58,385 bases of DNA. Origin: a virus. A program made the position numbers and the translations under genes. Of the stretch, positions 28,840 to 48,541 are shown piece by piece (within the stretch, counting starts at the first letter, position 1; the number at the start of each line of letters is the position of its first letter). The notes beneath the pieces are model-generated. The model ran no database searches. It worked only from the letters and a program-made list of their open reading frames with translations, and had not been told where the DNA came from. The DNA lies in IMG/VR virus record IMGVR_UViG_3300034104_000851, positions 1 to 58,385 of that record. One strand, 5' to 3'.

Positions 28840-29102
28840 GGGCATTTCCACCTTTTCAAACTAGCTTTGGCGCGTTCGCCGTCTTTTGCCTTGGCTGCAA
28901 CAGCCCCCATGCGGGCGCAGAACGACGCTTTGCGTCCTGCGTCAGCCTTTGTCTTCGGATTCGGCGCTGGAGCCTTCAATTTGCTGCCTGTTGCAGCGTT
29001 ATATTTCGCTCTACCAGCGGCAGTCAGGCCCGCGCCCTTTGACACAGGCAACTTCTCGCCTCTGCCAACGGACAATGACACTGATTTTTTCTTGTCTGCC
29101 AC
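28836..29102 (-). CDS. DUF6321-like small basic protein
   Basis: An 88-aa protein starting at GTG in a TAGTG overlap with the terminase stop: (M)ADKKKSVSLSVGRGEKLPVSKGAGLTAAGRAKYNAATGS..., ending KASFCARMGAVAAKAKDGERAKASLKRWKC. The GLTxAGRxKYNxATGSxLKAP...KSFCARM core is a known phage pattern that I associate with DUF6321, with moderate certainty. An upstream TTG at 29117 is possible. Confidence 0.6.
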   Translation of the reverse strand: MADKKKSVSLSVGRGEKLPVSKGAGLTAAGRAKYNAATGSKLKAPAPNPKTKADAGRKASFCARMGAVAAKAKDGERAKASLKRWKCP

Positions 29103-30637
29103 TAGCTGCCCATCCAAGATGTAGAATATCCAGCGGGAGAATACCCGCTTGAGGAGCGTCTGTCAACGCGTCCTTGTCGTGGGTCTTTAGATGCTACAGG
29201 AAAGGCAAATGTCACCGCTATGGCGTCCGCTGCGTCAGGTGACGCCAGCCCGCGTGACTTCATATCTTTCTTACTTTCGAGGAACAGCGTTCCTTTACTA
29301 TCCGGCTTGGTGCGCGGGCTGATGAGGTCTGTCTTCAGGAACCTGTCGTTGGGGATGTGCGCCGTTTTGAGCCACTCACGCATGGCGCCCCACATCTCCG
29401 CGCGCTTGTTGCCCCACATGATCTGGTTCTTGGCTTTATTGCCGAAGTTCACGCCGCGTATCTTGTACCGCTGCTCTTTCAGCCGGTCTACGACGCCTGC
29501 GCCTAACCCGCCTTCGTCGATGCACACCAGCGCCGGCTTGAACTGCTCTATGGCGTCGATGACGTAGCCAGCCACTTCCATTGTGTCAGCGCCGCGGTGC
29601 CTGCGTAACTCTAGGATGTCACGGCCCTGCCGTATGGCGATGACGGTAGCATCTGCCCCGAAGCGTGCAGGGTCTACCCCTATGACGATGGGCGCGCTGT
29701 CGTCCTTGATGGGTGGCCGCTTCATGGCGTCATCGACCAGATTGCTGCCAATGAACTGATCGTCACCTTCGCTGGGGAAGTTACCGTAGACTTCGACACT
29801 GGCTTGGTAGCTGTCTGGCCCGTATTCATCTATGATGCGCTGGTACAGGTTTTTGTCTGTACCCTCGACATCGCGGGCGTCGATTGTGCGTGTTGTCCAG
29901 AACGCCCGCTTGCTGTGGAACGTCTCGTAGAAATAGCCTGTGTTACGCCGCGGGTTGGAGAAGGCCAGATGGAAGCGGTGCGGTGTATTCTCTGTGAAGA
30001 AACCATCGCTCACCGACCAGATTGAGTCTGGAATACCGCTGGCTTCGTCGAAGATCAGCATCACACCGTCGAAGTTGTGGACACCTGCGTAGGCGTCAGG
30101 GTTCTCTTCCGACCACAGCCGGCCTTCGACTGACCAGTAGCGCGTGCCTTTCTTCAGGTCACGCTCGACCAGTTCCGTCAGCCACTTGGCTGGCATGATG
30201 CGTGTGGCGGCTATCTCGAACCAGTGACTGTTGAGCGACATCGCCAGCCACTTGGTAATTTCTGCCCATGTTACGCTACGTAGCTGCGCTTCGGAGTTTG
30301 CCGACACGATGGTGGTCGAGCCGATTCTGCTGGAAAGCATCCATATCGTGAGCCATGACACCAGCGCCGACTTACCAATACCGCGTCCTGACGCAATCGC
30401 CAGTCGCGCCGTGTCGAAGTCAACCTTGCCGTTGTTCGCTTTGATGTGGTCACGCAAGTCGCCAAGTATCTGGCGCTGCCATTTGCGCGGTCCGGGGAAA
30501 TGTTCCAGCGGTGTGCCTGCTTGGCCCCACGGGAATGTATACAGCACAAATGCTAGGGGGTCATCCTTCAGACTGGGCGACCACAGCCGCGCCATCAACT
30601 CCATCTCGTCTTGCGCTGAATATATCGGCTGCTGCAT
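29102..30637 (-). CDS. terL: Terminase large subunit
   Basis: A 511-aa packaging motor. ATPase: Walker A SGRGIGKSAL near residue 85, Walker B VMLIFDEASG near 190, coupling motif SNPRR near 225. Nuclease: GVDPARFG near 317, CIDEGGLG near 371 and DAADAIAV near 470 supply the acidic triad of the RNase H-like domain. AGAGG lies nine bases upstream of the start. It overlaps the small subunit gene by 77 bases. Confidence 0.93.
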   Translation of the reverse strand: MQQPIYSAQDEMELMARLWSPSLKDDPLAFVLYTFPWGQAGTPLEHFPGPRKWQRQILGDLRDHIKANNGKVDFDTARLAIASGRGIGKSALVSWLTIWMLSSRIGSTTIVSANSEAQLRSVTWAEITKWLAMSLNSHWFEIAATRIMPAKWLTELVERDLKKGTRYWSVEGRLWSEENPDAYAGVHNFDGVMLIFDEASGIPDSIWSVSDGFFTENTPHRFHLAFSNPRRNTGYFYETFHSKRAFWTTRTIDARDVEGTDKNLYQRIIDEYGPDSYQASVEVYGNFPSEGDDQFIGSNLVDDAMKRPPIKDDSAPIVIGVDPARFGADATVIAIRQGRDILELRRHRGADTMEVAGYVIDAIEQFKPALVCIDEGGLGAGVVDRLKEQRYKIRGVNFGNKAKNQIMWGNKRAEMWGAMREWLKTAHIPNDRFLKTDLISPRTKPDSKGTLFLESKKDMKSRGLASPDAADAIAVTFAFPVASKDPRQGRVDRRSSSGYSPAGYSTSWMGS

Positions 30638-31058
30638 GTGTGTTATCCTCTAGCTGGGGCAGTTCAGTGTACAGCCCCTCGATGACGCGCGACTGTGCTT
30701 TTTCCAGCGCGCCTGTAATGCTTATCTGTTGGTCGATGTTCACGTCGATCTGCTGCTTGGCTACCCAGCCGTGCTGATGCTTGAGTATCTCCAGCGCAGC
30801 CTTGCTGTCGCCATCGCGCGCCGCTTCGTACATGGTCTTAGCCGACACGTACTCGCCATCGGCACGACCTTTGATTTCGGCCATCTCGACCAGCGGATCA
30901 GCGTCGGCCAGCACGCGGTATTGCCGCGGGGTTAATCCAGCGGCCATAGCGAGACTGTCACCCTTCAGGCCGTAACGCGCTGCTTCATAGATCGCCTCTA
31001 GCCGCGCCTCGGTGGCCTGCGTCCGCTCTGGTGTAAATGGCAGTGAGTAGAAAGTCAT
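30561..31058 (-). CDS. terS: Terminase small subunit
   Basis: A 165-aa helical protein from MTFYSLPFTPERTQATEARLEAIYEAARYG; residues 15-50 form a helix-turn-helix (GLKGDSLAMAAGLTPRQYRVLADADP), then coil and a C-terminal TerL-binding tail. Two further ATG/alternative starts lie upstream at 31082 and 31178. I prefer 31058 because a promoter at 31066-31094 would begin RNA at or next to this ATG, and no ribosome site precedes any of the candidates. It recognises phage DNA and recruits TerL. Confidence 0.78.
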   Translation of the reverse strand: MTFYSLPFTPERTQATEARLEAIYEAARYGLKGDSLAMAAGLTPRQYRVLADADPLVEMAEIKGRADGEYVSAKTMYEAARDGDSKAALEILKHQHGWVAKQQIDVNIDQQISITGALEKAQSRVIEGLYTELPQLEDNTHAAADIFSARRDGVDGAAVVAQSEG

Positions 31059-31094: not shown

Positions 31095-31455
31095 AAAAAA
31101 TAAAAATTGACGCGGGCCGGGCTGCTTACCGGAGTGCGTTTGGCTTTTGCGCGAAAATCCAAAAACCTCAACAGACATCTAATCTGCGCCGCCGCGTCAA
31201 AACAAATAGTATGTGGTCGGGGATATTTTGCAAATAAAAAAAATTGTTTGCGACCCATGCCCGTGACAGTCACGCGGCGCTCGGCCCTCCCACCCCCACC
31301 CCCCTGCCAGCAGCGTTCTAGCTTTGTTCTATAGCGTAGATTCTGGGTTGGCCTTTTCCTTTACGTCAACGTCAACGTAGCGAAAAAACATATTGCTGGC
31401 TGGCTATGCTGCGGTGCAACATTTTGCATGGGCGTTCTAGGCTATGCGATTGCAT

Positions 31456-31534
31456 GTCATGACTGCGTAAATCATGACGCCATGACTGCGTAGGTCATGA
31501 CCGATTTGCGTAGTCATGACTGCGTGGTCATGAC
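31456..31534. repeat. Cluster of GTCATGAC palindromes with TGCGTA spacers
   Basis: Perfect GTCATGAC at 31456, 31494, 31513 and 31527, near copies at 31471 (ATCATGAC) and 31479 (GCCATGAC). TGCGTA or TGCGTG lies between most of them. Six sites in 79 bases. A dimeric protein probably binds here. Confidence 0.75.
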
Positions 31535-31747
31535 AGGGAAAGTTTACAATTGTTAAACATCTAGGCGATCTAGGCAATCGATTTGGGAGTCGTTCTCTAG
31601 AAAGTTATATTTTAACCATATAGGTTAATTATATACTTTTCTCAAACTGACTTAACATTCCATAGCCTAGATAGCCTAGAATCCTCGGCGAAGCGCAGAA
31701 ACCCTTGACTTTTTCCTAGGCAATTTAGCCCATTTTCATAGCCTAAC

Positions 31748-31864
31748 AAATGACTATTTCGCCTAACTTTTCGCCTAACAATTTTCGCGCCAAATATCGC
31801 TTGGCAAAAATAGTCATTTTCTAGGCTATCAGTTAGGCTATCATTTTAGGCCAAATGACTATTT
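31748..31864. repeat. Three copies of AAATGACTATTT, one inverted
   Basis: Direct copies at 31748-31759 and 31853-31864 and a perfect inverted copy at 31808-31819. The inverted copy can pair with either direct copy, giving two alternative 12-bp stems. GCCTA sites lie between. The last copy is 43 bases before the -35 of the early promoter. Confidence 0.65.
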
Positions 31865-31907
31865 TAAGAGGGCCTAAAATCTTTTTTTAGTGCAACACAT
31901 TTTGTTG

Positions 31908-31936
31908 TTGACAGCATGAATAAGAGGGTAGATAAG
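31908..31936 (+). promoter_or_regulatory. Candidate early promoter
   Basis: A perfect TTGACA (31908-31913) is followed after 17 bases by GATAAG (31931-31936), a weak -10. It is 33 bases before the first early start codon. TGCAACACATTTTGTTG (31891-31907) directly precedes it and matches the element at the replication promoter in 15 of 17 bases. Confidence 0.5.
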
Positions 31937-31968
31937 AGGGTATCAACAACGCAATGGAGTGAGACACC

Positions 31969-32184
31969 ATGACAAATACATTCAACCCCGGTGACCGCGT
32001 AATGGCCCGCATATTTGGCAGCGACTATTATCCCGCGACTATTGTTAGTTCTGTGGGCTGGAGTTCTATCCCCTCAATGTGTTGTCCCGTCGAATTCGAC
32101 CGCAAGCCGGTAACCGCAAGCGGCACATTAAACAGCCGCCGCGTCACAGTTCTAAAGTGCAACGTTAAGGAGTTGGCAGCATGA
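31969..32184 (+). CDS. Early protein 1, SH3-like fold likely
   Basis: A 71-aa protein, MTNTFNPGDRVMARIFGSDYYPATIVSSVGW...CPVEFDRKPVTASGTLNSRRVTVLKCN. The FxPGDRVxARxxxxxYYPATIV start is like Tudor or KOW/SH3-like barrels, which bind proteins or nucleic acid. GGAGTGAG lies eight bases upstream. First gene of the 19-gene early operon; ATGA overlap with the next gene. Confidence 0.65.
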   Translation: MTNTFNPGDRVMARIFGSDYYPATIVSSVGWSSIPSMCCPVEFDRKPVTASGTLNSRRVTVLKCNVKELAA

Positions 32185-32396
32185 ACCGCGAATATATCAT
32201 TTGGGGCAAGCCACCGCACAGCGACGACGAAACCCTGTTAGTGTCCGAAACCGCTGGCATTGCCAGCATGGAACAAGCGCAACGGGTTATCGCAACGCTA
32301 ACAGACGTGCATGGTTGCACCGATTGCCGCGTTCAAGTGTTTACGCTTGGCAATGGCGCCGACGTTATAAACGCATTTAGGAGTGCAATCGCATGA
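32181..32396 (+). CDS. Early protein 2, hypothetical
   Basis: A 71-aa protein, MNREYIIWGKPPHSDDETLLVSETAGIASMEQAQRVIATLTDVHGCTDCRVQVF. Coupled by ATGA on both sides. Pattern of an alpha/beta small protein with a CxxC; not recognised. Confidence 0.6.
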   Translation: MNREYIIWGKPPHSDDETLLVSETAGIASMEQAQRVIATLTDVHGCTDCRVQVFTLGNGADVINAFRSAIA

Positions 32397-32581
32397 CAAA
32401 TATCCCCGCACTTTGTGACCGCTGCAATAGCTGGATAATCACCGACAACGGCCAAGCTGTCATTGAGACATGGAGCCGCGACTATGTCGAAACAATCGCC
32501 AGCCGCGAAATGCCCGGCGTTGTTATCTACACCGCGCTGCAATGGTTGCAGCACTTCAACACTAACTTAGGAGCAAAGTAA
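32393..32581 (+). CDS. Early protein 3, hypothetical
   Basis: A 62-aa protein with CDRCNSWIITDNGQAVIETW, a CxxC near the N-terminus, without a second pair to make a full zinc site. ATGA overlap with the gene before. Not recognised. Confidence 0.55.
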   Translation: MTNIPALCDRCNSWIITDNGQAVIETWSRDYVETIASREMPGVVIYTALQWLQHFNTNLGAK

Positions 32582-32582
32582 A

Positions 32583-32765
32583 ATGGACAAAGTAGCAATA
32601 CATGAAGGTAACGCTGTAGCTTATTTGTGCGACTTAGGCGTTTCACGTTTAGAGGCGCGGCGAGTGCTTAGTGACTGCCCTATCGCATCATCATTCGGCG
32701 GCGCTGACTATTACTACCCAAAAGACCTGCACAAGGCCGCCGATAGCTACCTAGCAGACGCTTAA
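32583..32765 (+). CDS. Early protein 4, hypothetical
   Basis: A 60-aa protein, MDKVAIHEGNAVAYLCDLGVSRLEARRVLSDCPIASSFGGADYYYPKDLHKAADSYLADA. AGGAG lies upstream. The GVSRLEARRVL segment and following YYYPKDL could be a small winged or MerR-like DNA-binding fold, but this is weak. Confidence 0.55.
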   Translation: MDKVAIHEGNAVAYLCDLGVSRLEARRVLSDCPIASSFGGADYYYPKDLHKAADSYLADA

Positions 32766-32788
32766 CCAATCAATAGGAGTGAGAAACT

Positions 32789-33019
32789 ATGCACAACGGA
32801 CATAAAAACTGGAACCATTGGAACGTATCGCTTTGGCTTAACAATGACGAAGGCCTTTACCGCGAAATGATCCATTTCCTTGGCTATGCGCCAACCAAAG
32901 ATCGCGCTGCGCGGATGATGGCCGACAGCCTTAAATCAAGCGGCGCGACGCATACACGCGACGGTGCGCCATATAGCTACACAACCATTCGCGCTGCAAT
33001 GCGCCACCATGAATATTGA
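32789..33019 (+). CDS. Early protein 5, NxWNVSLW family
   Basis: A 76-aa protein with HKNWNHWNVSLWLNNDEGLYREM, a motif I recall from a widespread phage and bacterial family (possibly DUF7249; uncertain). The ribosome site AGGAGTGAGAAACT resembles that of early protein 1. The C-terminal half ends in AAMRHHEY. Role unknown. Confidence 0.6.
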   Translation: MHNGHKNWNHWNVSLWLNNDEGLYREMIHFLGYAPTKDRAARMMADSLKSSGATHTRDGAPYSYTTIRAAMRHHEY

Positions 33020-33028
33020 GCCGCGCAC

Positions 33029-33118
33029 ATGATCGCCCACATAGCAATCATAACATTCTTTATGGGCGTCGGCGCCCTATCAATCTACGCAATCATTAAA
33101 ACAGTGCGGGAAGCATAA
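33029..33118 (+). CDS. Tiny membrane peptide
   Basis: A 29-aa frame, MIAHIAIITFFMGVGALSIYAIIKTVREA, almost entirely one membrane helix with a short charged tail. It fills the gap between two early genes with a one-base gap after its stop. No clear ribosome site. Confidence 0.4.
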   Translation: MIAHIAIITFFMGVGALSIYAIIKTVREA

Positions 33119-33119
33119 C

Positions 33120-33356
33120 ATGAAATTTGAACTATTCGGCGGATGTGATGAATTCCAAGATTATGAATTGCGTGAGACTGGCCGCAATGCCGCTTGCCGT
33201 TCAATCATTTTGACCTTGCGTAACGGCAAGCCGGATTACGCAGTTGTTCGACGTTCGCTAACAAATGAGAGTGCGTTTGGTGACAAGGCCGAATTTACAC
33301 TGGGCGACCGAGCGTTCGCCGCACTCGCCGCTATATGGAAGGAACATAGTCAATGA
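33120..33356 (+). CDS. Early protein 6, hypothetical
   Basis: A 78-aa protein, MKFELFGGCDEFQDYELRETGRNAACRSIILTLRNGKPDYAVVRRSL..., with a compact alpha/beta pattern. ATGA overlap with the next gene. Not recognised. Confidence 0.55.
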   Translation: MKFELFGGCDEFQDYELRETGRNAACRSIILTLRNGKPDYAVVRRSLTNESAFGDKAEFTLGDRAFAALAAIWKEHSQ

Positions 33357-33550
33357 ACCCTGTTGATTACTACGCCGCCGCGCAAGAGCGCCGCCAGCGC
33401 GATAAAATGCTGCGCGATGCCGCGCCTGACCTGTTGGCCGCATTAGAACACGTTGACGCATACCTTGCGCCAGAGGGCGATGAAGAGGACCATTACAACT
33501 ATATCCGCGCAATCATCAAAGGCGCGATTTCAAAAGCACAAGGAGCATAA
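33353..33550 (+). CDS. Early protein 7, APDLLAAL helix protein
   Basis: A 65-aa helical protein with LRDAAPDLLAALEHVDAYL...IRAIIKGAISKAQGA. The APDLLAALE...A(I/A)xKA pattern recurs in many small phage early proteins of unknown role. ATGA overlap with the gene before. Confidence 0.6.
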   Translation: MNPVDYYAAAQERRQRDKMLRDAAPDLLAALEHVDAYLAPEGDEEDHYNYIRAIIKGAISKAQGA

Positions 33551-33551
33551 C

Positions 33552-33785
33552 ATGACACAAGACCGCAACTACCTACGCATGATGCACGACTGCGAATTGT
33601 CGCACTACGCATCGGAAAACGTCCGCACCGAATTAGAATTTGTCCTGCTGGAGCGCCTAGAGCATCTGATAGGCGTTGACGACGAACTAGAGGACGCAAA
33701 GCGCGAGATTGTCGAACTAAACGCACGGCTCGACCGCTGGATGGAACAAGCCAACGCCCTGCAAGCGCAACTAGAGGCCAAATGA
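33552..33785 (+). CDS. Early protein 8, coiled coil
   Basis: A 77-aa acidic protein from MTQDRNYLRMMHDCELSHY, with a clear coil from residue 30 (ERLEHLIGVDDELEDAKREIVELNARLDRWMEQANALQAQLEAK). AGGAG lies nine bases upstream of this start; the longer frame beginning at 33453 overlaps the upstream gene and was rejected. Confidence 0.6.
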   Translation: MTQDRNYLRMMHDCELSHYASENVRTELEFVLLERLEHLIGVDDELEDAKREIVELNARLDRWMEQANALQAQLEAK

Positions 33786-33841
33786 TTGCGGTTATCGCTG
33801 GAGCCGCCCTATTCCTATTAACTTTACTACTGGAGGATTGA
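33782..33841 (+). CDS. Possible 19-aa membrane peptide
   Basis: MIAVIAGAALFLLTLLLED, coupled by ATGA to the gene before and ending three bases before the next start; its tail contains the GGAGG that serves the next gene. Only one hydrophobic helix. It may be no more than leader space. Confidence 0.25.
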   Translation: MIAVIAGAALFLLTLLLED

Positions 33842-33844
33842 CCA

Positions 33845-34045
33845 ATGAACCAATATCAAATTGCAATCATAATGCTGTTAATATCGCAAGGCGTCACGCT
33901 GTTGCTACTATCGGAAGCCATTAAGCGCGGCAGCAAATGGCAAGCCATGTGGACACGCGACACATCGGAACTGCTATTCTGGAAGCGCAACGGCATCCTA
34001 CGCGATCCATTGACAGGCAAATACCGCAAGCGGGATAAAAGCTGA
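33845..34045 (+). CDS. Early membrane protein
   Basis: A 66-aa protein with an N-terminal membrane helix (YQIAIIMLLISQGVTLLLLSEAI) and a basic C-terminal part (LRDPLTGKYRKRDKS). Strong GGAGG upstream. TGATG overlap with the next gene. It could act on the host membrane or on superinfection; no evidence decides. Confidence 0.6.
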   Translation: MNQYQIAIIMLLISQGVTLLLLSEAIKRGSKWQAMWTRDTSELLFWKRNGILRDPLTGKYRKRDKS

Positions 34046-34386
34046 TGGAATACGCCATACGCAAGCAAATAAAGCACCTGTGCGGCTATATCAGCGACAA
34101 ATCCGCTGTGTTGCAGCACATCAACAGGGAACACAATCTACGCCTGACGCTGCGCGACATAGAGGATATAGACGAAGCCACATCACGCCACCGCGCACGG
34201 CGGACAGACCTAGCCGCTATGATACCATCGCCGCTGATTGTGACGCACAAGCACAAGGGGCACGACCCGCTGGCCTTGGCGCTGTTCAAATACCACGCGG
34301 CGCGGACGTTCGGCCCTGAACAAGCCTATTGGTTGGATAGGATGAACGACCGCAAGCCGAAGCCCACCACTACAATCGAACTGTAA
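34045..34386 (+). CDS. Early protein 10, basic hypothetical
   Basis: A 113-aa basic protein, MEYAIRKQIKHLCGYISDKSAVLQHINREHNLRLTLRDIEDIDEATSRHRARRTD... The first 45 residues could form a helix-turn-helix (ISDKSAVLQHINREHNLRLTLRDIEDI), so it is a candidate early DNA-binding protein. Not recognised. Confidence 0.6.
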   Translation: MEYAIRKQIKHLCGYISDKSAVLQHINREHNLRLTLRDIEDIDEATSRHRARRTDLAAMIPSPLIVTHKHKGHDPLALALFKYHAARTFGPEQAYWLDRMNDRKPKPTTTIEL

Positions 34387-34397
34387 AGGACAGACAC

Positions 34398-34547
34398 ATG
34401 ATTAAACCACAACAAGCCGCGCCTATGGGGCGTAAGCATCGCGTTTCATCCGACAGCGCATGGCCGCTGCGCGGACCAGATGGCAAGACCTTCGCGGAAC
34501 GCCGCGCAGAACGCGAAAAGGAGCAAAGCAAATGCCTAGACCAATGA
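34398..34547 (+). CDS. Early protein 11, small basic
   Basis: A 49-aa protein, MIKPQQAAPMGRKHRVSSDSAWPLRGPDGKTFAERRAEREKEQSKCLDQ, with AAGGA upstream. Its end contains the AAAGGAG site for the next gene, which it overlaps by 16 bases. Confidence 0.45.
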   Translation: MIKPQQAAPMGRKHRVSSDSAWPLRGPDGKTFAERRAEREKEQSKCLDQ

Positions 34548-34717
34548 CATACCCAATCGGAACGCTGGCCGTAGGCGAGAGCGCCACCATGCCAGCCACA
34601 AAGAAGGGCGATGCCAAGCGCACCAGCCGCAACGTGAGCCAATACGGCATCCGCAACGGTAAAGCCTTCAAGTGCCGCACTGTGGGCGGCGTAACCTTCA
34701 TAACTAGATGGATGTAA
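34532..34717 (+). CDS. Early protein 12, small basic
   Basis: A 61-aa protein, MPRPMTYPIGTLAVGESATMPATKKGDAKRTSRNVSQYGIRNGKAFKCRTVGGVTFITRWM. IRNGKAFKCRTVGGVTFITR is a pattern seen in short phage proteins where the C-terminal strands may bind DNA. AAGGAG lies upstream. Confidence 0.6.
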   Translation: MPRPMTYPIGTLAVGESATMPATKKGDAKRTSRNVSQYGIRNGKAFKCRTVGGVTFITRWM

Positions 34718-34721
34718 GCAA

Positions 34722-34901
34722 ATGACAGATCAAAACGGATATATGAAACTAACGCGCACCCCTGCGGTGCGGTCGCCTAGAGACCCAAACACTTTTACCA
34801 ACCACCTTACCACCGAAAGCGGCGGGATAGGCGAAAGGGTGACAGACGAAACCGCGACGCACTATCTGGTGCATCACTTTTGGATCGAAGAAAAGAAATG
34901 A
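34722..34901 (+). CDS. Early protein 13, hypothetical
   Basis: A 59-aa frame, MTDQNGYMKLTRTPAVRSPRDPNTFTNHLTTESGGIGERVTDETATHYLVHHFWIEEKK. It closes the gap between two genes and overlaps the next by ATGA, which supports it. Not recognised. Confidence 0.5.
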   Translation: MTDQNGYMKLTRTPAVRSPRDPNTFTNHLTTESGGIGERVTDETATHYLVHHFWIEEKK

Positions 34902-35290
34902 CCAATATAAGCGAATGGGGCGCAGTCATGCGCCTAGCCAGACGCGCTGCGCTGTTGGCCGGCGAAGAACAGCGCCGCCTTGGGCGTGTGACGGAACAGG
35001 AAGATAGCAGCATCATGCTGTATACCGACGACCCGACAACGGCGGGGCTGTTCGCCCGCAATTCCGACATGGCTGCAATGTGCAAGACCAGCGGCATTGA
35101 AGGCGTGTGCATCGTCATGGGTGACAAGTTTCCGCCAGCAGCGCATGAAGCCGAGCGTTCCGACCCTGAACTGCCGCGCGTTGCTGCGATGTGGTTCCCC
35201 GCCAATGGCGACAAATGCCCCCGCTGCCGCCTGTTCAGGCGCACGACAGGCGAAATATGCAACCCATGCCAAAGGAAATTAGCAGCATGA
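34898..35290 (+). CDS. Early protein 14 with C-terminal zinc ribbon
   Basis: A 130-aa protein. The C-terminal KCPRCRLFRRTTGEICNPCQ is a four-Cys zinc finger like that at the end of isoleucyl-tRNA synthetases and FPG glycosylases. The N-terminal part is helical and basic. The ATG in an ATGA overlap is preferred to an upstream in-frame start. Nucleic-acid binding is likely. Confidence 0.6.
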   Translation: MTNISEWGAVMRLARRAALLAGEEQRRLGRVTEQEDSSIMLYTDDPTTAGLFARNSDMAAMCKTSGIEGVCIVMGDKFPPAAHEAERSDPELPRVAAMWFPANGDKCPRCRLFRRTTGEICNPCQRKLAA

Positions 35291-35523
35291 CCAATGACAA
35301 AGACAGCGAAGACGCACTGACTATCGCCTACTTGTTAGGCGTTAAGCACGGCAGATCTGAGCAGAACACACAGACCGATGCGCTAAAGGCGGCAGGTGCG
35401 GCTATCCGTGGGTTGCTGGATATAACTTCGGAATACAATCTCGACAGCGAACAGGCTGGCCGTGCGTATGCAGCACTTCATAAAATAGGCACAGCACTCG
35501 CAGCACTGAAACAAAGCAAATGA
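35287..35523 (+). CDS. Early protein 15, helical
   Basis: A 78-aa helical protein, MTNDKDSEDALTIAYLLGVKHGRSEQNTQTDALKAAGAAIRGLLDITSEYN... Coupled by ATGA on both sides. The DALTIAYLxGxxxG stretch is common in small phage proteins of unknown role. Confidence 0.55.
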   Translation: MTNDKDSEDALTIAYLLGVKHGRSEQNTQTDALKAAGAAIRGLLDITSEYNLDSEQAGRAYAALHKIGTALAALKQSK

Positions 35524-35759
35524 CCGACGATACAAAGCAGGAACGCGAGGAGGTGGCCGACAAATGGATTGACCTTAATACGTGGCATGTATTGAGACGT
35601 CGTTCCTGCACACTACTAGATGAAGCTGAATACCTCCAACGCCGAGGGCAACGCACCAAAGCAAAGCAGGTATGGTTAGAACTTGGGCCACTCAACCGCT
35701 ACTTGAGGTCGGTTAAGGTGCGCGGCCTTGACTTTGATAACGGAAAGGAAAGCAAATGA
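35520..35759 (+). CDS. Early protein 16, hypothetical
   Basis: A 79-aa charged protein, MTDDTKQEREEVADKWIDLNTWHVLRRRSCTLLDEAEYLQRRGQRTKAKQVW... Coupled by ATGA on both sides. Mostly helical; not recognised. Confidence 0.55.
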   Translation: MTDDTKQEREEVADKWIDLNTWHVLRRRSCTLLDEAEYLQRRGQRTKAKQVWLELGPLNRYLRSVKVRGLDFDNGKESK

Positions 35760-35956
35760 CAGACCATGATGATGAGGACGACGAATTGGCACTGCCCGAA
35801 CGATACATCGAACGCGCAGGCGAAACCTTAGCCTACCGCTTGATGGAATATCTGGAATTTCTGGGCGTGATAGGCAAGGACCATGTGTCTTACTTGCGCT
35901 ACCCGCCCATTGAATTGATCGAGGACGCCGAAAAGGCGTTGAGGGATGAGGAATAA
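35756..35956 (+). CDS. Early protein 17, acidic, last of operon
   Basis: A 66-aa acidic protein, MTDHDDEDDELALPERYIERAGETLAYRLMEYLEFLGVIGKDHVSYLRYPPIELIEDAEKALRDEE. Net charge strongly negative, the kind of composition seen in DNA-mimic inhibitors, though nothing more supports that. It stops six bases before the terminator. Confidence 0.55.
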   Translation: MTDHDDEDDELALPERYIERAGETLAYRLMEYLEFLGVIGKDHVSYLRYPPIELIEDAEKALRDEE

Positions 35957-35961
35957 ATAAA

Positions 35962-35994
35962 AAGCCCCCTGCGGAGTGAGGACGCAGGGGGCTT
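35962..35994. terminator. Strong convergent terminator
   Basis: A perfect 12-bp stem, AAGCCCCCTGCG and CGCAGGGGGCTT, with a nine-base loop. On the minus strand TTTATTTATT follows, good for ending the primase operon. On the plus strand the tail is A-rich, so early transcripts may stop less well. Confidence 0.75.
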
Positions 35995-36052
35995 AAAAAG
36001 GTCAGCGGAGCATCACCGACCCTATCCATATATCATTGCAACCAAATGGTTG

Positions 36053-38398
36053 TCAATTCTTGCCTATCGACGGCATGATGCTCGACTTAGGCAAGTCTTC
36101 CGCCAAGCGGCGCAAGTCTGATTTGTTCCCTTTTTTCACGTCTGGCGCGACAAAGATATGTTTCTTGGTCACATATTCAGTCGAACCGATCCGGCCCATG
36201 TCAACCCAGCCAGCTTCTTTGAGCGCATGAAGCAGCGCCGCCTGTGGTATCTTGACGCCAGCAGGGACGTTAATCGCCAGCGCGTCACAGATGCGATGGA
36301 AAGGCCCACCAATGACACCATTGGCAAACACACCCGCCCTTTCGCGCATCATGTCCACAAGATAGCTTTCCGCGACGCTCATGCCATGCTCGACCATGTT
36401 CAGCTTCCATTCGGTCACTGGCGGCGCAGCCGCAGGGTTGAACGCCGACACGTCGCGCTGATGCAGCCAAGCGGCGCACTTCTCATAGCCGCCGCTTTCA
36501 TACCAGCCCCACAGCTTTTTGGCTGCGGTCGGCGTCATACGCGGCGCGCGCGTCCACACGCAGAACCAGCGCCTGTCCTGTGTCGGTAGCGTGATAGGCA
36601 GCGGATCGTTCGTGTAGGCAATCACCATCAGGCGGTTGACCAAGTCGTAAGGGTGCATACCCTTGCGGTTGACCGACAGCGTTTCAGGCGGTGCGGCGAT
36701 AAGCGGCTTTAGCTTGTTAGCCATAGCGCGACGTTCGCGTGCCTCTGGCTCCTTCAACTCGTTCAGGATGACAACTTCAGCCTCAAGCGCATAACCCCAC
36801 TGGCTGTCCAACCCGCCAGCCTCAATGACTGACCTGTTGCGCCAGTGCTGACCGCCAAGCGCCCACAGGAACGGCTGGAACATACTGTCCTTACCAGCGC
36901 CTTCATCGCCGCCAATCAGGATGGCATGGTTAATCTTGACGCTAGGGTGCTGTATCTTGAACGCCATAGCGTCAAGGATGTGGTCTAACTCGACATCATC
37001 CGCCACCAGACTGCGGCAATGCTCTAGCCAAGGTTCGACATCATGGTCTGCAATCTTGTCGCTGCCCGACACATCAGGCCGTCCGTCTGTCCAGCGATTG
37101 CCGTAGACAAGCCCATCACGCGTCACCAGCACGTCATCGCCAGCGGCGAACGTCACAGCCGACAGCGCAGGGGCGCCGCGATCCTGACGGCGCTCATCAT
37201 AATAGATGGACGCCTGCACGCGGTTTGTCTTCTTGTGTATGGAACGGCAGTCAACGTGACGGAACAACGCGTTAAAGACGTTGCGGGCTATCTCTTGACG
37301 CGTCACCATGTCAAAATAGCTATCGTCGGACTGGATGTATGCGAAACGCTCGAACCATTCGCTTTGTTCCAGCCGTCCTGCCTCTTTCTTTTCGACCTCA
37401 CGCACACGCGCTGCGGCCTCATCAGGGAAGGCTTCGGTCGGCGCGATTTTCTCATACATCGACGCCAGACGTTCAGCGATTAGTTCGTCACGCAAGCCCG
37501 GCGTTACCTTCGGGCCACCTTCATTGGCTACCCAATCAAGGAACGTGCGGCTGTCTAAGTCTTGGCAATGCCCATGATAGCAGCAGAACGAACGATCCAG
37601 CGGCTTGTAGCGCGCCTCGACCATGCCGTCGCTGTGTTGCTCATGGTTAGGGCAGACGATGCCGCACCAGCCGTCAGCGTTAGGATGGCTAAGGACTAGG
37701 TTGTTGTCCGCAAGCCATGTGAGGACGTTGTCCAACCCATTGTCGCGCAACTGCACAGCTTTATATTCGGCTGTGTCGCCTTCTTCTGGCGTAACGTCCA
37801 GCGCCTTGCAGATTTCGTCCAGCGTGTATTCCCGCTCAGGGTTGAACGATACCAGACGCGCAGGAAAGTTATTGCGCCCTTGCTTCAGGTTGACGCTGCC
37901 GGGGATGCGGCAGTTGCGGACGGCGTTAGTCGCACCGGGATCAGTGTAGCCAGCGTCCGCAATGGCCTTGATGGCAGCGCAGAAGTCGCCCTTGCGTGGC
38001 TGTTCGCTGAACGCGTAACCCCATTGGAACGAACCTTCGCTGGTTTCCAATATCCATGTCGGGTCAAGCGGCGGCGTCTTTGACTTAGTGCCGACATCGT
38101 CCAGCATCATAAACAACACATACTCGACGTTGCTGGACTTGGCGGCTGGCTTGCCGTCTACAAAGCGGCCAACGATGAACGAACCTGTGTTGACATACCA
38201 TGCCTCGCCTTCTTTCATGCGGGTCTTTTCTGGCAGGAACGCAGGAAACGTCGCCTTCGGCGCGCCGTCTGCGTGGAATATCATGTTGCCGTCGCTGTCG
38301 TGTTGCGGCTTCTGCCGCACCACAAGGGCTGTCTCGCCGACGTTGTCCGTCGCCAAGCCAGTTATGTATTCTATGAATTTCGTGCGATCCTCACTCAT
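36053..38398 (-). CDS. Primase/helicase, RepB-primase plus DUF5906-type ATPase
   Basis: A 781-aa replication protein. N-terminal third: TWILETSEGSFQWGYAFSEQP ... NAVRNCRIPGSVNLKQ is typical of RepB-type primase domains. A zinc-binding segment follows (CPNHEQH...CCYHGHC). The C-terminal ATPase has Walker A IGGDEGAGKDSMFQPF near residue 500 and VVILNELKEPEARERR, like DUF5906/SF3-type phage helicases. MSEDRTKF is chosen because GAGGAG lies six bases upstream. It follows the polymerase gene by 11 bases. It would lay primers and unwind DNA at the fork. Confidence 0.8.
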   Translation of the reverse strand: MSEDRTKFIEYITGLATDNVGETALVVRQKPQHDSDGNMIFHADGAPKATFPAFLPEKTRMKEGEAWYVNTGSFIVGRFVDGKPAAKSSNVEYVLFMMLDDVGTKSKTPPLDPTWILETSEGSFQWGYAFSEQPRKGDFCAAIKAIADAGYTDPGATNAVRNCRIPGSVNLKQGRNNFPARLVSFNPEREYTLDEICKALDVTPEEGDTAEYKAVQLRDNGLDNVLTWLADNNLVLSHPNADGWCGIVCPNHEQHSDGMVEARYKPLDRSFCCYHGHCQDLDSRTFLDWVANEGGPKVTPGLRDELIAERLASMYEKIAPTEAFPDEAAARVREVEKKEAGRLEQSEWFERFAYIQSDDSYFDMVTRQEIARNVFNALFRHVDCRSIHKKTNRVQASIYYDERRQDRGAPALSAVTFAAGDDVLVTRDGLVYGNRWTDGRPDVSGSDKIADHDVEPWLEHCRSLVADDVELDHILDAMAFKIQHPSVKINHAILIGGDEGAGKDSMFQPFLWALGGQHWRNRSVIEAGGLDSQWGYALEAEVVILNELKEPEARERRAMANKLKPLIAAPPETLSVNRKGMHPYDLVNRLMVIAYTNDPLPITLPTQDRRWFCVWTRAPRMTPTAAKKLWGWYESGGYEKCAAWLHQRDVSAFNPAAAPPVTEWKLNMVEHGMSVAESYLVDMMRERAGVFANGVIGGPFHRICDALAINVPAGVKIPQAALLHALKEAGWVDMGRIGSTEYVTKKHIFVAPDVKKGNKSDLRRLAEDLPKSSIMPSIGKN

Positions 38399-38409
38399 CG
38401 CTTGCTCCT

Positions 38410-40365
38410 CTATTTGCCGTATCGTTCCATTATTGCCACTTCTGCGTTCAGGGGTAAACCCGACGCCCAAGGTGGCGGCTCACACATAATCTGCACCAGC
38501 CGCGCTGCGGCGGCTTCGGCTTCATCCTCTGGCACTTCCAAGACAATTTCATCGTGGATGTGCAGCACTACGTTATCCAATCGACGCAAGGCGTGGCGCA
38601 GCAAGTCGTTAGCGACAGCCTGCGTGATATTCTCACACGCCAGACCGCGCCACAGCCGCGCCCTAGGCCATTCCTTAGCGTCTGCGGCTGGCTTCCATGA
38701 AGCCTTGGCATAGGTCAGATTGCCTTCCTCGTCGAAACGGGCGAAAGGATAACATAACACACGTCCAGACGGAAGCGCATACCAAAGATGCAATCCATCA
38801 AATAAATATGTGACGCGGCCAATGGTAAACTCACGGCCCTTGTTCCGCATGGCGCGCATATAGGTGTCCTCAAGGCCAGACCAGTAAGGCACAGCCCACT
38901 TGTTAGCCCTGCGCCATGCGTCCACCATGCGCTTCGCGTCGCTCTCCGACATCAGCAAGCCGTAGATGCGGCCCATGCTGGCGAACGCACCGACGCCGCC
39001 TGCAAAGCCGCACGCCAACTCTTGAACCTTCCCGATCTGGCGCTGGTCTTTATCGACCTCATCATAGCTGACATGAAAGGTCGCCATAGCGTTGTGCTTG
39101 TAAACGTCCTCACCCTTGGCAAAGATGTCCAGCTTGTTCACACCAAAGATGCTGTTGGACGCCCACGGCGTCACCCGCGCTTCAATGGCAGCCCAATCGG
39201 CAACGACCAGCCGCTTGCCTTTGTCGGCCATCAGCGCAGGGCGTAGCATACCTTTCAGCACGTCCGTCACGCGGCGGCCATGCTCAGGCACGATCTGGTG
39301 CCCGCGCACCATAGCCTGCCGCACTAATGCAGGGTCGGCGGCGCACTTTCTTGGGAAGTTGTGGACCTGAAGCCCAAATGATGAAGCGCGGCCAGTAGCA
39401 CTGCCTCCTGCAAATACAAATGCTCCTCTAACTCGAAAATCTTCCTCATCAGCAAGCGCCGCGGCACGCTGGAATTTTGCCACGGACGATGCCCAGAGAT
39501 CGTCCGCGCACTGGATGACTTCTGCAACTTCCGCCGGAACTTCATCAGGGTTTTCCTCCGCCAGCACGAGTAGGTTAGCGCGCACGTTCTTGTCAATGGA
39601 CAGCTTCTCAACGCCGTCCTTCATCACAGTTGCCACGGCCACGGCCTGCGGCCCTACCCTGTCCAGCACCCACGCCTTCATCTTGGGGCTGCGGACGGAC
39701 TTAATCTCGCCCTTCGTCACCTCTGCGACGATGTCCTGTATCTCGACCATCTCTTCTTGGGCGTAACGCACAGCAGCCAGCGCCAGCGGCCTGTCGAGCA
39801 ACACGCCACGGTCGTTAATCCGTTCGTTGGTGTGATAGTCGGCCAACTCTTCCGCCGACAGCGGACGCTGCGCCTGCGCGATAGCGCGCATGGCCCGAAC
39901 GTCCTGTTCGCAATAATCAACCATCTCCTGCATCAGCGTCGCGTCCTCACGAAACGTGCCGTCTGATTGCGGGATGGACAGCAAGCGGATCAGTTGTCCG
40001 CCGCGATGGTCTTTCTTCATGGTCGCGCCAGCGAAGCGGCCCACATCCTCAAGGCTACCCGGCGCGCAGTTGGCGCGGGCTTGCGCTGCGGTGCAGTAGA
40101 ACTGCTCCAGCTTGAAATCGACCTGAAGGACATACCAGAATATCAGGCGCTCGAACGCTGCGTTGTGCGCGTACACCAGCCCCTTGTGGTCACGCACGGC
40201 TTGCGGGAAAGGCTCACCGGGGAGCCACGTCCGCACGTCTTCGTCATCAAATGCGTAGGACATACACAGCACGTCGGTGCTGGCGTCCTGCGCGTAATTA
40301 TAGACGCCGCGGCTGCGAAGGTCGCAACGGCTGCGCGTCTCAAAATCAACCCATAATTTAGACAT
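38410..40365 (-). CDS. DNA polymerase, family A
   Basis: A 651-aa polymerase with proofreading. Exonuclease motifs: WVDFETRS near residue 6, YAHNAAFERL near 65, YCEQDVRAM near 155. Polymerase motifs: A, ADWAAIEARV near 395; B, RQIGKVQELACGFAGG near 445; C, LHIHDEIVLEV near 615. MSKLWVDFETRS is the best start. It follows the possible ssDNA-binding gene, with a hairpin between them. It is the replicative polymerase. Confidence 0.92.
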   Translation of the reverse strand: MSKLWVDFETRSRCDLRSRGVYNYAQDASTDVLCMSYAFDDEDVRTWLPGEPFPQAVRDHKGLVYAHNAAFERLIFWYVLQVDFKLEQFYCTAAQARANCAPGSLEDVGRFAGATMKKDHRGGQLIRLLSIPQSDGTFREDATLMQEMVDYCEQDVRAMRAIAQAQRPLSAEELADYHTNERINDRGVLLDRPLALAAVRYAQEEMVEIQDIVAEVTKGEIKSVRSPKMKAWVLDRVGPQAVAVATVMKDGVEKLSIDKNVRANLLVLAEENPDEVPAEVAEVIQCADDLWASSVAKFQRAAALADEEDFRVRGAFVFAGGSATGRASSFGLQVHNFPRKCAADPALVRQAMVRGHQIVPEHGRRVTDVLKGMLRPALMADKGKRLVVADWAAIEARVTPWASNSIFGVNKLDIFAKGEDVYKHNAMATFHVSYDEVDKDQRQIGKVQELACGFAGGVGAFASMGRIYGLLMSESDAKRMVDAWRRANKWAVPYWSGLEDTYMRAMRNKGREFTIGRVTYLFDGLHLWYALPSGRVLCYPFARFDEEGNLTYAKASWKPAADAKEWPRARLWRGLACENITQAVANDLLRHALRRLDNVVLHIHDEIVLEVPEDEAEAAAARLVQIMCEPPPWASGLPLNAEVAIMERYGK

Positions 40366-40425: not shown

Positions 40426-41088
40426 TTAAACTACGCGACGACGACGACGCGCACCTTCAGCGGCTTCAGGTTCAGCGGCGACTTCCAACTCCGCATCCTC
40501 TGTTTCTTCGACTGCATTTGCGTCCATCGACACCCAATCGGTGATGTCAAAGATAGGCGTATAGATGCGGCCATAGGTCTTGTGCTGGTAATGCTCTGAC
40601 GACAGCGAGAGCAACGGCACAGGCTTAGTCTGGTCCTTGTCCACCTGATCGGCGATGGCAACGGCCAATGCCTGCACAGCGCGTTTGCCGCCGACTGATG
40701 TAGCCGTGAAGCGCGCCTGCATGTCCTTGTCTTCGCCGTTGGTGCAGACCAGCATCATGCCGACTTGCATTTCCCAACCGCGCGTTGCGCCTGATGGCGC
40801 TGGCTCCAACTCTGGCAGCGGCTCTGACACTGGCACCAGCTTTTCAGCCAGCACTTCGCCGTTGCCCCATGCGATGTAGCCATGAACGAACGAAAACGGA
40901 TTAGCGGCCCACAGGCTGCCGTCTTCAACTTCGGTCTGGTCTGCACCGAAAACCCAATGGCCTGTCTTGTCCATCTTTAGGATGACTGTGCCGCCCGGCG
41001 CAACTTCCGATTGGATGGAACGCAACGCGCCGGAGAGGGACTGAACGGACGGCAAGTTAGCGCCGCCAAAAGTAGTGATATTTGACAT
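40426..41088 (-). CDS. Possible ssDNA-binding protein, full-length copy
   Basis: The complete 220-aa protein. The first 145 residues are moderately beta-rich (GGTVILKMDKTGHWVFGAD, GWEMQVGMMLVCTNGEDKDMQARFTATS), followed by a linker and an acidic tail (ETEDAELEVAAEPEAAEG) capped by ARRRRRVV. An acidic C-terminus is common in phage ssDNA-binding proteins, but here it ends in five Arg. The place between a DUF2800 nuclease and the polymerase is where DUF2815 proteins occur. Function remains inference. Confidence 0.6.
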   Translation of the reverse strand: MSNITTFGGANLPSVQSLSGALRSIQSEVAPGGTVILKMDKTGHWVFGADQTEVEDGSLWAANPFSFVHGYIAWGNGEVLAEKLVPVSEPLPELEPAPSGATRGWEMQVGMMLVCTNGEDKDMQARFTATSVGGKRAVQALAVAIADQVDKDQTKPVPLLSLSSEHYQHKTYGRIYTPIFDITDWVSMDANAVEETEDAELEVAAEPEAAEGARRRRRVV

Positions 41089-41106
41089 TGTATTGTACCT
41101 TTTCTG

Positions 41107-42240
41107 TTACTGGATTTTAGACATAGCTTTGGTAAGCGTCTGTCCGATTTGCAAAACCGCTGGCCGAGGATCATTCTCCGGCGCAAGGGTAGAGCCTGTT
41201 GAGACGGCGACAACTAAGTTCGCCGGCAATTCTAATTTGTTTTTTTTCAGCGCCTTCTTCAAAGCCTTTTCTGCTTGCGCTGGCGACAACGGCTTGGGTT
41301 CGCCCCATGCCTCAATACCAGCAAGAGTCATAAATGCTACAGCCTCATCCTCATTTGTCCACTGTCTTGTGGCGCGTTTGTTGACCAGCTTCCAGCCGGG
41401 GACTTTGCGCCCCTCTTCCAGAAGCCCGTGCGCCATCTGCTGCAAATCCTTGATGAACGCCTCAATCAGCGGCGCCTGTTCAAGATAGTGTGCAATCTGG
41501 TCAATCGGCAGCGCGTCCATCTTGGCTTTCAGTGCGCGGTCTACCGCGCCTGTCATCACAGGACAAATGGGCTTGGCCGCGCACCACTTGCAATGGTCGC
41601 CTGACGCCAACGGCGCGTCTGGGCGCATGGCAATCTTAACGGCGGCGGCAAGTTCTTTCTCAAACGCGTCAACGCGTGCAAGGTCAGTCACCCACCGCTT
41701 GACGAACGGTGGTTGTACAATGATTAGTTCGACTTCTTTTGCACCCTCGAAAGCCCAAGCCGTATCCGCCGTGCGTTTAGCCGCCGCAGCGTAGAAGAGT
41801 AGCTGGCTGTTTTCTTCGACTTCGACAGCCACGCCATCGCCAAACTTCCAATCCAGAACGACCGCTCGATCACCAAGGCGACCAAGAAGATCGGTAGAAC
41901 CAAAAACGTCAGGCAGAAAATCACCAAAACCAACCCGGCTTTCAACCGCATATTCCATCTCCCCCTTGGGGTCTATCTCGTCCAGCGCACGCAGCGCGGG
42001 TATCAGCTTGTCATCAACCAGTGCTTCAGTCAGCACGGTCTTCTCATAGGTGGTGCCGACCATGCTGTACGGATCAAGGTCACGCTCTAATATGGTGGCT
42101 ATGGTGTCGTGCAGGAGCGTGCCTTCGTCGGCGTAGCTGCTGCTGGGCTTCGGCGGTACAGTGTCCACCAGCGCCACGCTGCCGGGGCAGGCGATGACGC
42201 GTTTGGCGGTCGAGCCGCCGACTATCTTACTATGCTGCAT
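41107..42240 (-). CDS. DUF2800-like PD-(D/E)XK nuclease, genome B
   Basis: A 377-aa counterpart of the nuclease at 436-1557, with the same FGSTDLLG, VVLDWKFGDG and CKWCAAKPICPVM motifs. A four-residue insertion (KKALKKNK region near 355) is a small tandem duplication of a Lys-rich segment. The start has AAGGAAGG upstream and the conserved promoter behind it. Confidence 0.75.
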   Translation of the reverse strand: MQHSKIVGGSTAKRVIACPGSVALVDTVPPKPSSSYADEGTLLHDTIATILERDLDPYSMVGTTYEKTVLTEALVDDKLIPALRALDEIDPKGEMEYAVESRVGFGDFLPDVFGSTDLLGRLGDRAVVLDWKFGDGVAVEVEENSQLLFYAAAAKRTADTAWAFEGAKEVELIIVQPPFVKRWVTDLARVDAFEKELAAAVKIAMRPDAPLASGDHCKWCAAKPICPVMTGAVDRALKAKMDALPIDQIAHYLEQAPLIEAFIKDLQQMAHGLLEEGRKVPGWKLVNKRATRQWTNEDEAVAFMTLAGIEAWGEPKPLSPAQAEKALKKALKKNKLELPANLVVAVSTGSTLAPENDPRPAVLQIGQTLTKAMSKIQ

Positions 42241-42270
42241 ACTGAACCTTCCTTTACTGTTTGAACTGCC

Positions 42271-42298
42271 AATATACATACAACAAAATTTGATGCAA
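42271..42298 (-). promoter_or_regulatory. Replication operon promoter, genome B
   Basis: Minus-strand TTGCAT (42293-42298), 16 bases, TATATT (42271-42276). The -10 is closer to consensus than in genome A. The 17-base element TGCATCAAATTTTGTTG is unchanged. Confidence 0.6.
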
Positions 42299-42336
42299 GA
42301 CTTGAAATGCAAAAAATTTTGGAGTAGCGTTTTGCC

Positions 42337-42612
42337 ATGACTGAGAAAGAGATAGAGCGGTACTTCTGTAAACGTGTGCGGGCAGCCGGCGGCTTTGCCT
42401 ATAAGTTCCGCAGCGTTACGCAGATCGGTGTGGCCGACCGCATAGCATGTATGCCTAACGGCGAGGCTTGGTTCGTGGAACTGAAGCAGCCTAACGGTAG
42501 GCTGTCTGCGTTGCAGCGTATCTTTTCAGATGAGATGGCACACACCAAGCAGCATTACGCCTGCCTGTGGTCAGTAGAGGATGTGGACACATGGCTCAAA
42601 CGCTTCAGCTAA
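42337..42612 (+). CDS. VRR-NUC nuclease, genome B
   Basis: A 91-aa copy of the nuclease at 1654-1929, with GVADRIACMPNGEAWFVELK unchanged. GGAG lies 12 bases upstream in a fully conserved leader. It overlaps the helicase by 22 bases as in genome A. Confidence 0.85.
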   Translation: MTEKEIERYFCKRVRAAGGFAYKFRSVTQIGVADRIACMPNGEAWFVELKQPNGRLSALQRIFSDEMAHTKQHYACLWSVEDVDTWLKRFS

Positions 42613-43904: not shown

Positions 43905-44088
43905 GTTAAACTGGCGGTCGATGATTGCCGTGCTGTCCGACCTTACGGAAGGCGAACTAAAGGATGCGCTGGACGCGGAACTGAAGACGCACAAGCGCCC
44001 GGCCATCGCTCGGCGGTTGCACCAGCGGTACTCTGCGATGCGGACGGCGCGGGAGCGCGTCGAGATTATGAAGAGGTTGAAGAAATGA
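43897..44088 (+). CDS. Conserved small basic protein, genome B
   Basis: A 63-aa copy of the protein at 3414-3605; the basic C-terminal helix is unchanged. It overlaps the helicase by eight bases and the next gene by ATGA. Confidence 0.7.
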   Translation: MSKLNWRSMIAVLSDLTEGELKDALDAELKTHKRPAIARRLHQRYSAMRTARERVEIMKRLKK

Positions 44089-44216
44089 CAGACCATGCAG
44101 CGGCGACCGCTGAAGCACTGGAAATGGTGATTGCCATGCTAAAGGCAGGGCAATCACCTGAAGACTTAGGCCCGATGGTTATACTGATCGGGCGTATGAT
44201 GGCTAGGCGAACCTAA
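44085..44216 (+). CDS. Conserved 43-aa protein, genome B
   Basis: MTDHAAATAEALEMVIAMLKAGQSPEDLGPMVILIGRMMARRT, the counterpart of 3602-3733. It overlaps the end of the convergent membrane-protein gene by four bases, leaving no room for a terminator. Confidence 0.6.
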   Translation: MTDHAAATAEALEMVIAMLKAGQSPEDLGPMVILIGRMMARRT

Positions 44217-44380
44217 GCTAAGTATTGCGACAGCGCCGTAGCGGCTGCGCCGATGATGGCGAGTACGCCGGCCAGCTTGGCTTTCCAACCAAGGGCAGGC
44301 TTCGGCGCTTCGTCCATCGGCAAGATTTTACCGGCGACTTCTTTCACGGCAATTTTCGTGATGAGGTTCTTCAAGTTCAT
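44213..44380 (-). CDS. Small membrane protein of the genome B lysis region
   Basis: A 55-aa protein from MNLKNLITKIAVKEVAGKILPMDEAPKPALGWKAKLAGVLAIIGAAATALSQYLA: an amphipathic N-terminus and one C-terminal membrane helix. GGAGAG lies upstream. It is last in the late operon, after the endolysin. A holin or antiholin role is possible but not shown. Confidence 0.55.
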   Translation of the reverse strand: MNLKNLITKIAVKEVAGKILPMDEAPKPALGWKAKLAGVLAIIGAAATALSQYLA

Positions 44381-44390
44381 GTTACTCTCC

Positions 44391-45767: not shown

Positions 45768-45927
45768 CTGTATTGATTAGCCATTCGGTGCAGTAGCCCA
45801 TAGCGATGCACCGCGGCTTCTTGCAGAGTTCGTCTTCCCAATTCGCAGGGTCTTGACAATCGTAGCGGTAGCGGTCTTCGCAGCCAGCAAGCACCAGCGC
45901 CGCCAGTAGTAGACTGACTATACGCAT
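45742..45927 (-). CDS. Small Cys-rich lipoprotein, possible outer-membrane spanin
   Basis: A 61-aa protein with the signal MRIVSLLLAALVLAGC: the lipobox LAGC puts the lipid on Cys16. The mature part has four more Cys (CQDPANWEDELCKKPRCIAMGYC). No Rz-like partner was found next to it, so it could be a spanin component or another phage lipoprotein. Confidence 0.65.
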   Translation of the reverse strand: MRIVSLLLAALVLAGCEDRYRYDCQDPANWEDELCKKPRCIAMGYCTEWLINTGEEDEAEK

Positions 45928-45934
45928 ACGCCCT

Positions 45935-46114: not shown

Positions 46115-46116
46115 TG

Positions 46117-48537: not shown

Positions 48538-48541
48538 ACTA

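Follow-up and report, generated by a model that had tools for sequence, protein, structure and literature searches.

The window analysed here is the whole 58,385-nucleotide stretch of IMG/VR virus record IMGVR_UViG_3300034104_000851. Between two divergent gene groups it contains a dense cluster of short repeats, and the question that these repeats raise is what they are for and which protein reads them. The cluster is very probably an iteron origin of replication that includes an unwinding core and is read by a self-loading primase-helicase through its C-terminal domain.

A repeat array between terS and the early genes

The record carries terminase, portal, DNA polymerase and other phage genes. 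Leftward terS and terL lie on one side of the array and a rightward early gene cluster on the other, followed by a minus-strand primase-helicase gene and then a family-A DNA polymerase gene. The features of this region are as follows (positions in the window).

29102..30637, minus strand: terL, the query used to find relatives; does not track the array motif
30561..31058, minus strand: terS, assigned by position, 165 aa from a conserved MTFYSLPF start; does not track the array motif
31437..31877, seven sites on the plus and six on the minus strand: whole array of 13 TAGGC-class sites, proposed iterons
31437..31445, plus strand: outlying site CTAGGCTAT
31456..31534: second repeat family, GTCATGAC / TCATGACTGCG, common to some nearest relatives
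31561..31578, plus strand: inner tandem pair CTAGGCGAT CTAGGCAAT, directed toward the AT-rich core
31579..31661: AT-rich core, flanked by the converging pairs and proposed as DNA unwinding element, overlapping the AT-richest 60-mer; architecture also seen in relatives
31662..31679, minus strand: inner tandem pair CTAGGCTAT CTAGGCTAT, directed toward the AT-rich core
31716..31877: outer group of eight sites, with imperfect inverted repeats (31716 plus, 31738 minus, 31758 minus, 31770 minus, 31821 plus, 31833 plus, 31846 plus, 31869 minus)
31969..36000, plus strand: small early gene cluster, variable among relatives
36053..38470, minus strand: primase-helicase, 805 aa, proposed initiator

The first-pass annotation had described thirteen TAGGC/GCCTA pentamers in 439 bases, in both orientations, within AT-rich and gene-free DNA between the early and late operons, and each part of this description is borne out. 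Exact counting gives 13 pentamers in 31438-31876 (seven plus, six minus), where about 0.7 are expected (Poisson tail approximately 1e-13, before scan correction). The contig as a whole has 93 against 94.5 expected, which is no overall excess, so the unusual feature is the clustering; a search for the same density elsewhere found only five sites in the densest other 439-bp stretch away from the array. The interval between 31334 and 31969 has no ORF of at least 60 aa. Among the contig's 500-bp blocks, 31501-32000 is the poorest in GC (39%; second-lowest 47%), and at its centre is the AT-richest 60-mer of all 58,385 bases (31605-31664, 78% AT).

Three features go beyond the first-pass description: a 9-bp tandem register, converging pairs around the AT-rich core and the second repeat family GTCATGAC. 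The array units are 9 bp long and often in tandem (CTAGGCTAT, CTAGGCAAT, CTAGGCGAT, TTAGGCTAT, TTAGGCGAA and weaker variants). The tandem pairs at 31561-31578 (plus) and 31662-31679 (minus) converge on the AT-richest 60 bases, placing an AT-rich element directly beside repeats. The GTCATGAC palindromes, which have TGCGT spacers, lie within the array region (31456-31534); this family is enriched in some nearest relatives (L002, L003 and L138) and is not reported as enriched in most TAGGC-class loci. Three copies of AAATGACTATTT, direct and inverted, surround the outer sites (31747-31759, 31807-31819 and 31852-31864) and could form large hairpins. Cumulative GC skew, proposed in the first-pass annotation as a check near 31.7 kb, has no turning point at the array.

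Several other observations concern the contig and the neighbourhood of terS. Positions 1-20195 repeat positions 40672-58385 at approximately 78-91% identity (offset approximately 40.67 kb). The contig can be read as one phage genome followed by part of that of a related strain, arising either from two strains joined in assembly or from a tandem arrangement, and the true genome length is probably near 40.7 kb. An 822-aa ORF (10965-13433) has internal direct repeats of approximately 290-300 bp that are 78-82% alike (11155-11720 and 11809-12553). Just upstream of terS, the block at 31240-31330 is G-rich and then conserved, ending in a CAAACAATTTTT-like sequence (terS orientation). This block looks alike across motif classes, distant relatives L061 and L064 included, and is a candidate packaging site. 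HNH-type homing endonuclease-like genes are inserted beside terS or terL in L023, L026, L045, L046 and L409; in L409, the gene annotated as a homing endonuclease (10712-11158) lies between the array and the terminase genes.

Different motifs in the same slot of relatives

A TerL search gave 80 related viral contigs, and further scans with four primases led to 202 distinct loci, all of them metagenome contigs that are unevenly sampled and not fully independent. In these 202 loci the primase gene and terS share a strand and are separated by 2-7 kb, the array immediately preceding terS. Nearly all have an array in this slot, and its motif varies by class (TAGGCTAT, GTGGACAAT, TTGGGTCAT, CTGGGTCAT, GTGRGTCAT, TTGGCTAT, GACGTCA and others). 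Most of the TerL-found contigs that reach far enough likewise hold a dense repeat array at the same place with a different sequence: TAGGC in some, and TGACAAC, GACGTCA, TGGGTCA, TGTCCACA, CTCACA or GCCGAA in others. The motif differs even at 95-99% TerL identity: L002 has TAGGC and L005 has TGACAAC, though the TerL proteins of such phages are 99% identical to that of the window. The first-pass annotation had named relatives with the same operons and no such sites as what would refute its reading. An array is indeed present at this junction in relatives, while TAGGC itself is absent from many close ones; the proposed refutation is misleading because many close relatives hold an array of another motif there.

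Records outside the main set were also considered. MW202483, a complete podovirus record, combines an unlike wing (GMCFAPELS; see below) with an unlike motif (GTTTACA) in the same slot. In phage DSL-LC05 (OR003940; L415:33500-34000) TerL is related and the slot is occupied by a TGACCCA array, but the phage was left out of the wing-motif table because its primase gene is different; judging by this phage, the arrangement may reach beyond the group studied. Two distant primase relatives with dense repeats, Vibrio phage 1.185.O and Thiohalocapsa phage MD04, were dropped because their strongest repeat peaks appear in or next to coding sequence. The 1.185.O repeat (L413:3890-4107) lies inside a coding gene; its annotation as CRISPR spacers is less probable than a coding repeat.

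Primase-helicase residues that follow the motif

The N-terminus of the primase-helicase has a weak match to RepB_primase (E-value: 9.6e-05, slightly below the Pfam cut-off), and no match to a Toprim domain was obtained in the protein. Its centre matches DUF5906 (SF3-type helicase; E-value: 4e-09, above the cut-off), and the closest solved helicase relative is that of phage NrS-1 (6k9c/6k9e; E-value: 1.8e-10, profile positions 473-617). The C-terminus is predicted to have the winged helix order. In AlphaFold predictions, whether of the whole protein or of the C-terminal 134 residues alone, helices are followed by a strand-loop-strand at the C-terminus, with middling confidence (domain mean pLDDT 72; 80-85 around the wing). 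The relevant codons are as follows.

36101..36376, minus strand: predicted C-terminal winged helix, residues ~699-790
36167..36190, minus strand: wing residues 761-768 (IGSTEYVT), positions tracking the motif class

A Foldseek search of the C-terminal domain against the PDB returned no match at E <= 0.001. Fold searching against the PDB gave only general winged helices with low scores (VIA-align Z up to 6.2), and the P4 alpha origin-binding domain was absent among the fold matches listed.

Association between protein residues and array motif was scored column by column in 183 loci (16,653 pairs). Arrays were described blind via enriched 6-mers, and each column was scored, with a correction for overall primase identity, by how far loci with the same residue also have similar arrays. 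The highest partial r values in the primase were at columns 767 (0.546), 762 (0.424), 764 (0.297) and 761 (0.289), then 765 (0.204), against a median of 0.006 (sd 0.077) for all primase columns. These five columns fall within seven residues, in one wing loop of the predicted winged helix; the modelled strands span 756-761 and 770-774, and the tracking residues therefore occupy the wing and the last part of the strand before it. By the same computation, the best columns of the control proteins reached 0.151 (TerS), 0.164 (TerL) and 0.292 (PolA). When arrays were shuffled within 80%-identity clusters (300 trials), column 767 never exceeded 0.045 (observed 0.545) and column 762 never exceeded 0.141. 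The first-pass annotation had suspected the primase N-terminus; the tracking residues are instead at the C-terminus. TerS, which is alike across motif classes, and an early regulator, for which no family is universal enough (at most 73 of 202 loci), were both rejected as the array binder.

The wing also predicts the motif across large distances. When only relatives with less than 70% core identity were consulted, prediction of the motif class from the wing was correct in 119 of 173 loci, and prediction from the nearest core in 29 of 173. Motif counts per wing class are nearly block-diagonal, and the two classes agree in 179 of the 180 loci classifiable on both sides; the class patterns were written after viewing the data, whereas the column scan was not subject to this. 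On the tree of the primase core, wing and motif each change approximately 30 times. Among supported-branch pairs, those differing in motif differ likewise in wing for TAGGC (7/8) and TGGACA (7/7), and the two go in the same direction for GGGTCA (7/8) and GACGTCA (7/7), with no opposed pair in these four larger sets. Such a pattern suggests repeated, independent switches of wing and motif class. The motif is unclear or ambiguous for wings RIACVDHP and RIASVEYA, for six NSK loci and for three LLKSR loci. An out-of-sample case is a Rhodoferax MAG contig identified afterwards: its wing is RLKSRRHD and its array GTCCACA, as the following table predicts (wing from residue 760; site 5'-3').

Wing R[IV]GS: site [CT]TAGGCTAT
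Wing RLASR: site GTTGGCTAT
Wing RVAS[GS]D: site TTGGGTCAT
Wings R[IV]HSV and RIASV: site CTGGGTCAT
Wing LLKSRA: site GTG[GA]GTCAT
Wing RLKSR: site GTGGACAAT
Wing R[LIV]NSK: site GACGTCA, some with TTGTCA

All classes except NSK share a frame, T.T.G...AT or near it, with the variable bases inside. The helix preceding the wing (743-752, AALLHALKEA) is almost invariant in 38 sequences and is therefore likely to read the common frame, with the wing reading the variable bases, as far as sequence conservation and the model indicate.

Array architecture is also shared between classes. A 9-bp register of short direct repeats is present in the window and in most motif classes; sites on the same strand are most often 9 bp apart in the IGS, LKSR, VASGD and LASR classes and 10 bp apart in LLKSR, and the register of the NSK class is less strict. 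In most classes, sites to the left of the AT-rich core are mainly forward and those to the right mainly reverse. This orientation is clearest in the IGS class (68 forward and 10 reverse on the left; none forward and 62 reverse on the right) and weak in the LLKSR and LASR classes.

Origin model, alternatives and known systems

Other readings of the array were weighed against an origin. The first-pass annotation had offered an iteron origin or a large operator for an unnamed regulator; the former is strongly supported, and the latter is unsupported, since even the most widespread early protein family reaches at most 73 of 202 loci, while arrays are near-universal, and only primase-helicase residues strongly track the motif. 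A regulatory role in place of an origin, as a multi-site operator on which a repressor or activator acts, would suit a site between divergent early and late transcription units with weak promoter-like matches nearby, and an initiator bound at the array could regulate transcription too. Only one promoter-like match falls inside the array, however, and converging pairs around the most AT-rich DNA fit melting; an operator is improbable. A promoter and terminator scan of the region was uninformative, and PHROGs and Pfam searches of the early genes tested gave no clear DNA-binding candidate.

A packaging region (pac or cos) bound by TerS would explain why the array adjoins terS, as in many phages, and TerS-binding sites can be repeated. 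Against this, TerS is nearly identical between L002 and L005, whose motif classes differ, its columns never pass a partial r of 0.151, and the block at ~31240-31330, which looks alike across classes, is a better candidate, leaving this reading very unlikely. Much the same low probability applies to the array and primase tail having been inherited or exchanged together without physical contact. Their distance of 2-7 kb and the frequency of mosaic exchange in phages would allow it, but strong tracking is confined to a few neighbouring wing residues and does not extend over the rest of the primase gene, the nearer terS does not track the motif, and the same wing-motif pair recurs across clades of less than 70% identity. 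Chance clustering, or a composition effect of AT-rich DNA, could be entertained on the ground that TAGGC is not enriched contig-wide; given a probability of ~1e-13 for 13 sites and arrays in the same slot of many relatives, it is negligible, and comparison with relatives has already refuted it.

The preferred reading remains an iteron origin, and the model for its use, in which binding, melting, initiation, loading order and incompatibility are inferred from the computed array and its architecture, from the variety of classes among relatives and from the covariation of motif and wing, can be outlined thus. The C-terminal winged helix of the primase-helicase would bind the 9-bp iterons, and the converging tandem pairs would load the protein, probably a ring from either side, onto the AT-rich core (31579-31661). 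The primase-helicase would then melt the core and start forks with its own helicase and primase domains, and the phage family-A DNA polymerase would extend them. Most of the specificity for the iteron class would reside in the wing loop (residues 761-767), and a few residue changes together with repeat turnover could then make a new origin type. New types would presumably be mutually incompatible.

A further reading, somewhat less likely than not, is that one non-satellite clade has split into at least eight replication-specificity groups by means of four or five wing residues, to avoid decoys and parasites. The recognition helix would stay almost invariant while the repeats change in step with the wing, and neither co-infecting relatives nor parasites or decoys could then exploit or titrate the replication machinery of another group. 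Phage lambda can be blocked by additional copies of its origin (PMC4488673), and origins are contested between satellites and their helpers (PMC8263062); rapid switching thus hints at possible selection. Competition between co-infecting relatives, satellites and host-borne origin decoys are possible drivers.

Among known systems, the closest likeness is to the SaPI and PICI replicons. In SaPIbov1 and SaPI5 Rep, the E. coli PICI pri-rep-ori and SCCmec Cch2, an initiator helicase reads short iterons via its C-terminal domain (PMC7581432), and by analogy the primase-helicase may do the same. The PICI rep-ori is defined by two iteron sets flanking an AT-rich region (PMC6092414), as also found in the window. 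This layout has been called unique to PICIs (PMC6092414) and now appears in a common aquatic podovirus group. The SaPI/PICI origin is directly 3' of rep, whereas here it is 2-7 kb from the primase gene and upstream of terS; SaPIs and PICIs are satellites or genomic islands, whereas the present lineage consists of podoviruses of 38-41 kb that encode terminase, portal and PolA themselves.

P4 alpha combines a primase, a helicase and a winged-helix domain for binding the origin repeats in a single polypeptide (PMC4234260, citing Yeo et al. 2002). The wing identified here lies in a predicted C-terminal winged helix, where P4 alpha has its origin-binding domain (PMC4234260); no sequence or fold match to that domain was obtained from the C-terminal domain, among the matches listed. 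The P4 alpha primase is of the bacterial Toprim type (PMC4234260), whereas the N-terminus here is RepB_primase-like, below the cut-off. A self-loading primase-helicase route has been described or proposed for SaPI Rep and Cch2 (PMC7581432) and for P4 alpha (PMC4234260). Because of the podovirus setting and an origin kilobases away from the initiator gene, the system is not filed as a PICI or P4 replicon.

Other systems share single aspects. In PLE, the ICP1 satellites, the DNA-binding domain of RepA covaries with the iterons, the module is swapped and replication occurs with cognate pairs only (PMC8263062), a covariation of initiator reader domain and origin that resembles the present one; the ICP1 nuclease Odn belongs to the same comparison. 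PLE RepA belongs to the RepA_N family, with no helicase or primase activity predicted (PMC7145576), and PLE has two origin groups in a satellite, in contrast to approximately eight classes, read by one wing, in whole phages. The NrS-1 primase-polymerase, to which the helicase part is related, forms an SF3-type hexameric ring (PMC7102993, in excerpt); that excerpt describes two copies of an 8-nt recognition sequence in the genome and no iteron array or winged-helix tail. Iteron plasmids such as RSF1010 (RepC/RepA/RepB') likewise have initiator-bound iterons and a RepB-type primase, divided among three separate proteins (PMC4234260) where here there is one fused protein.

The approximately 200 loci, with at least eight classes and repeated switches, constitute a natural set of matched origin and initiator variants in close relatives. 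This makes it possible to test directly the DNA reading of a winged-helix initiator and the way in which a replicon can shift its specificity while staying viable, and the wing provides a practical rule for locating origins in unannotated relatives. By analogy, the best explanation is a system like SaPI/PICI Rep-ori and P4 alpha, although in a non-satellite podovirus lineage.
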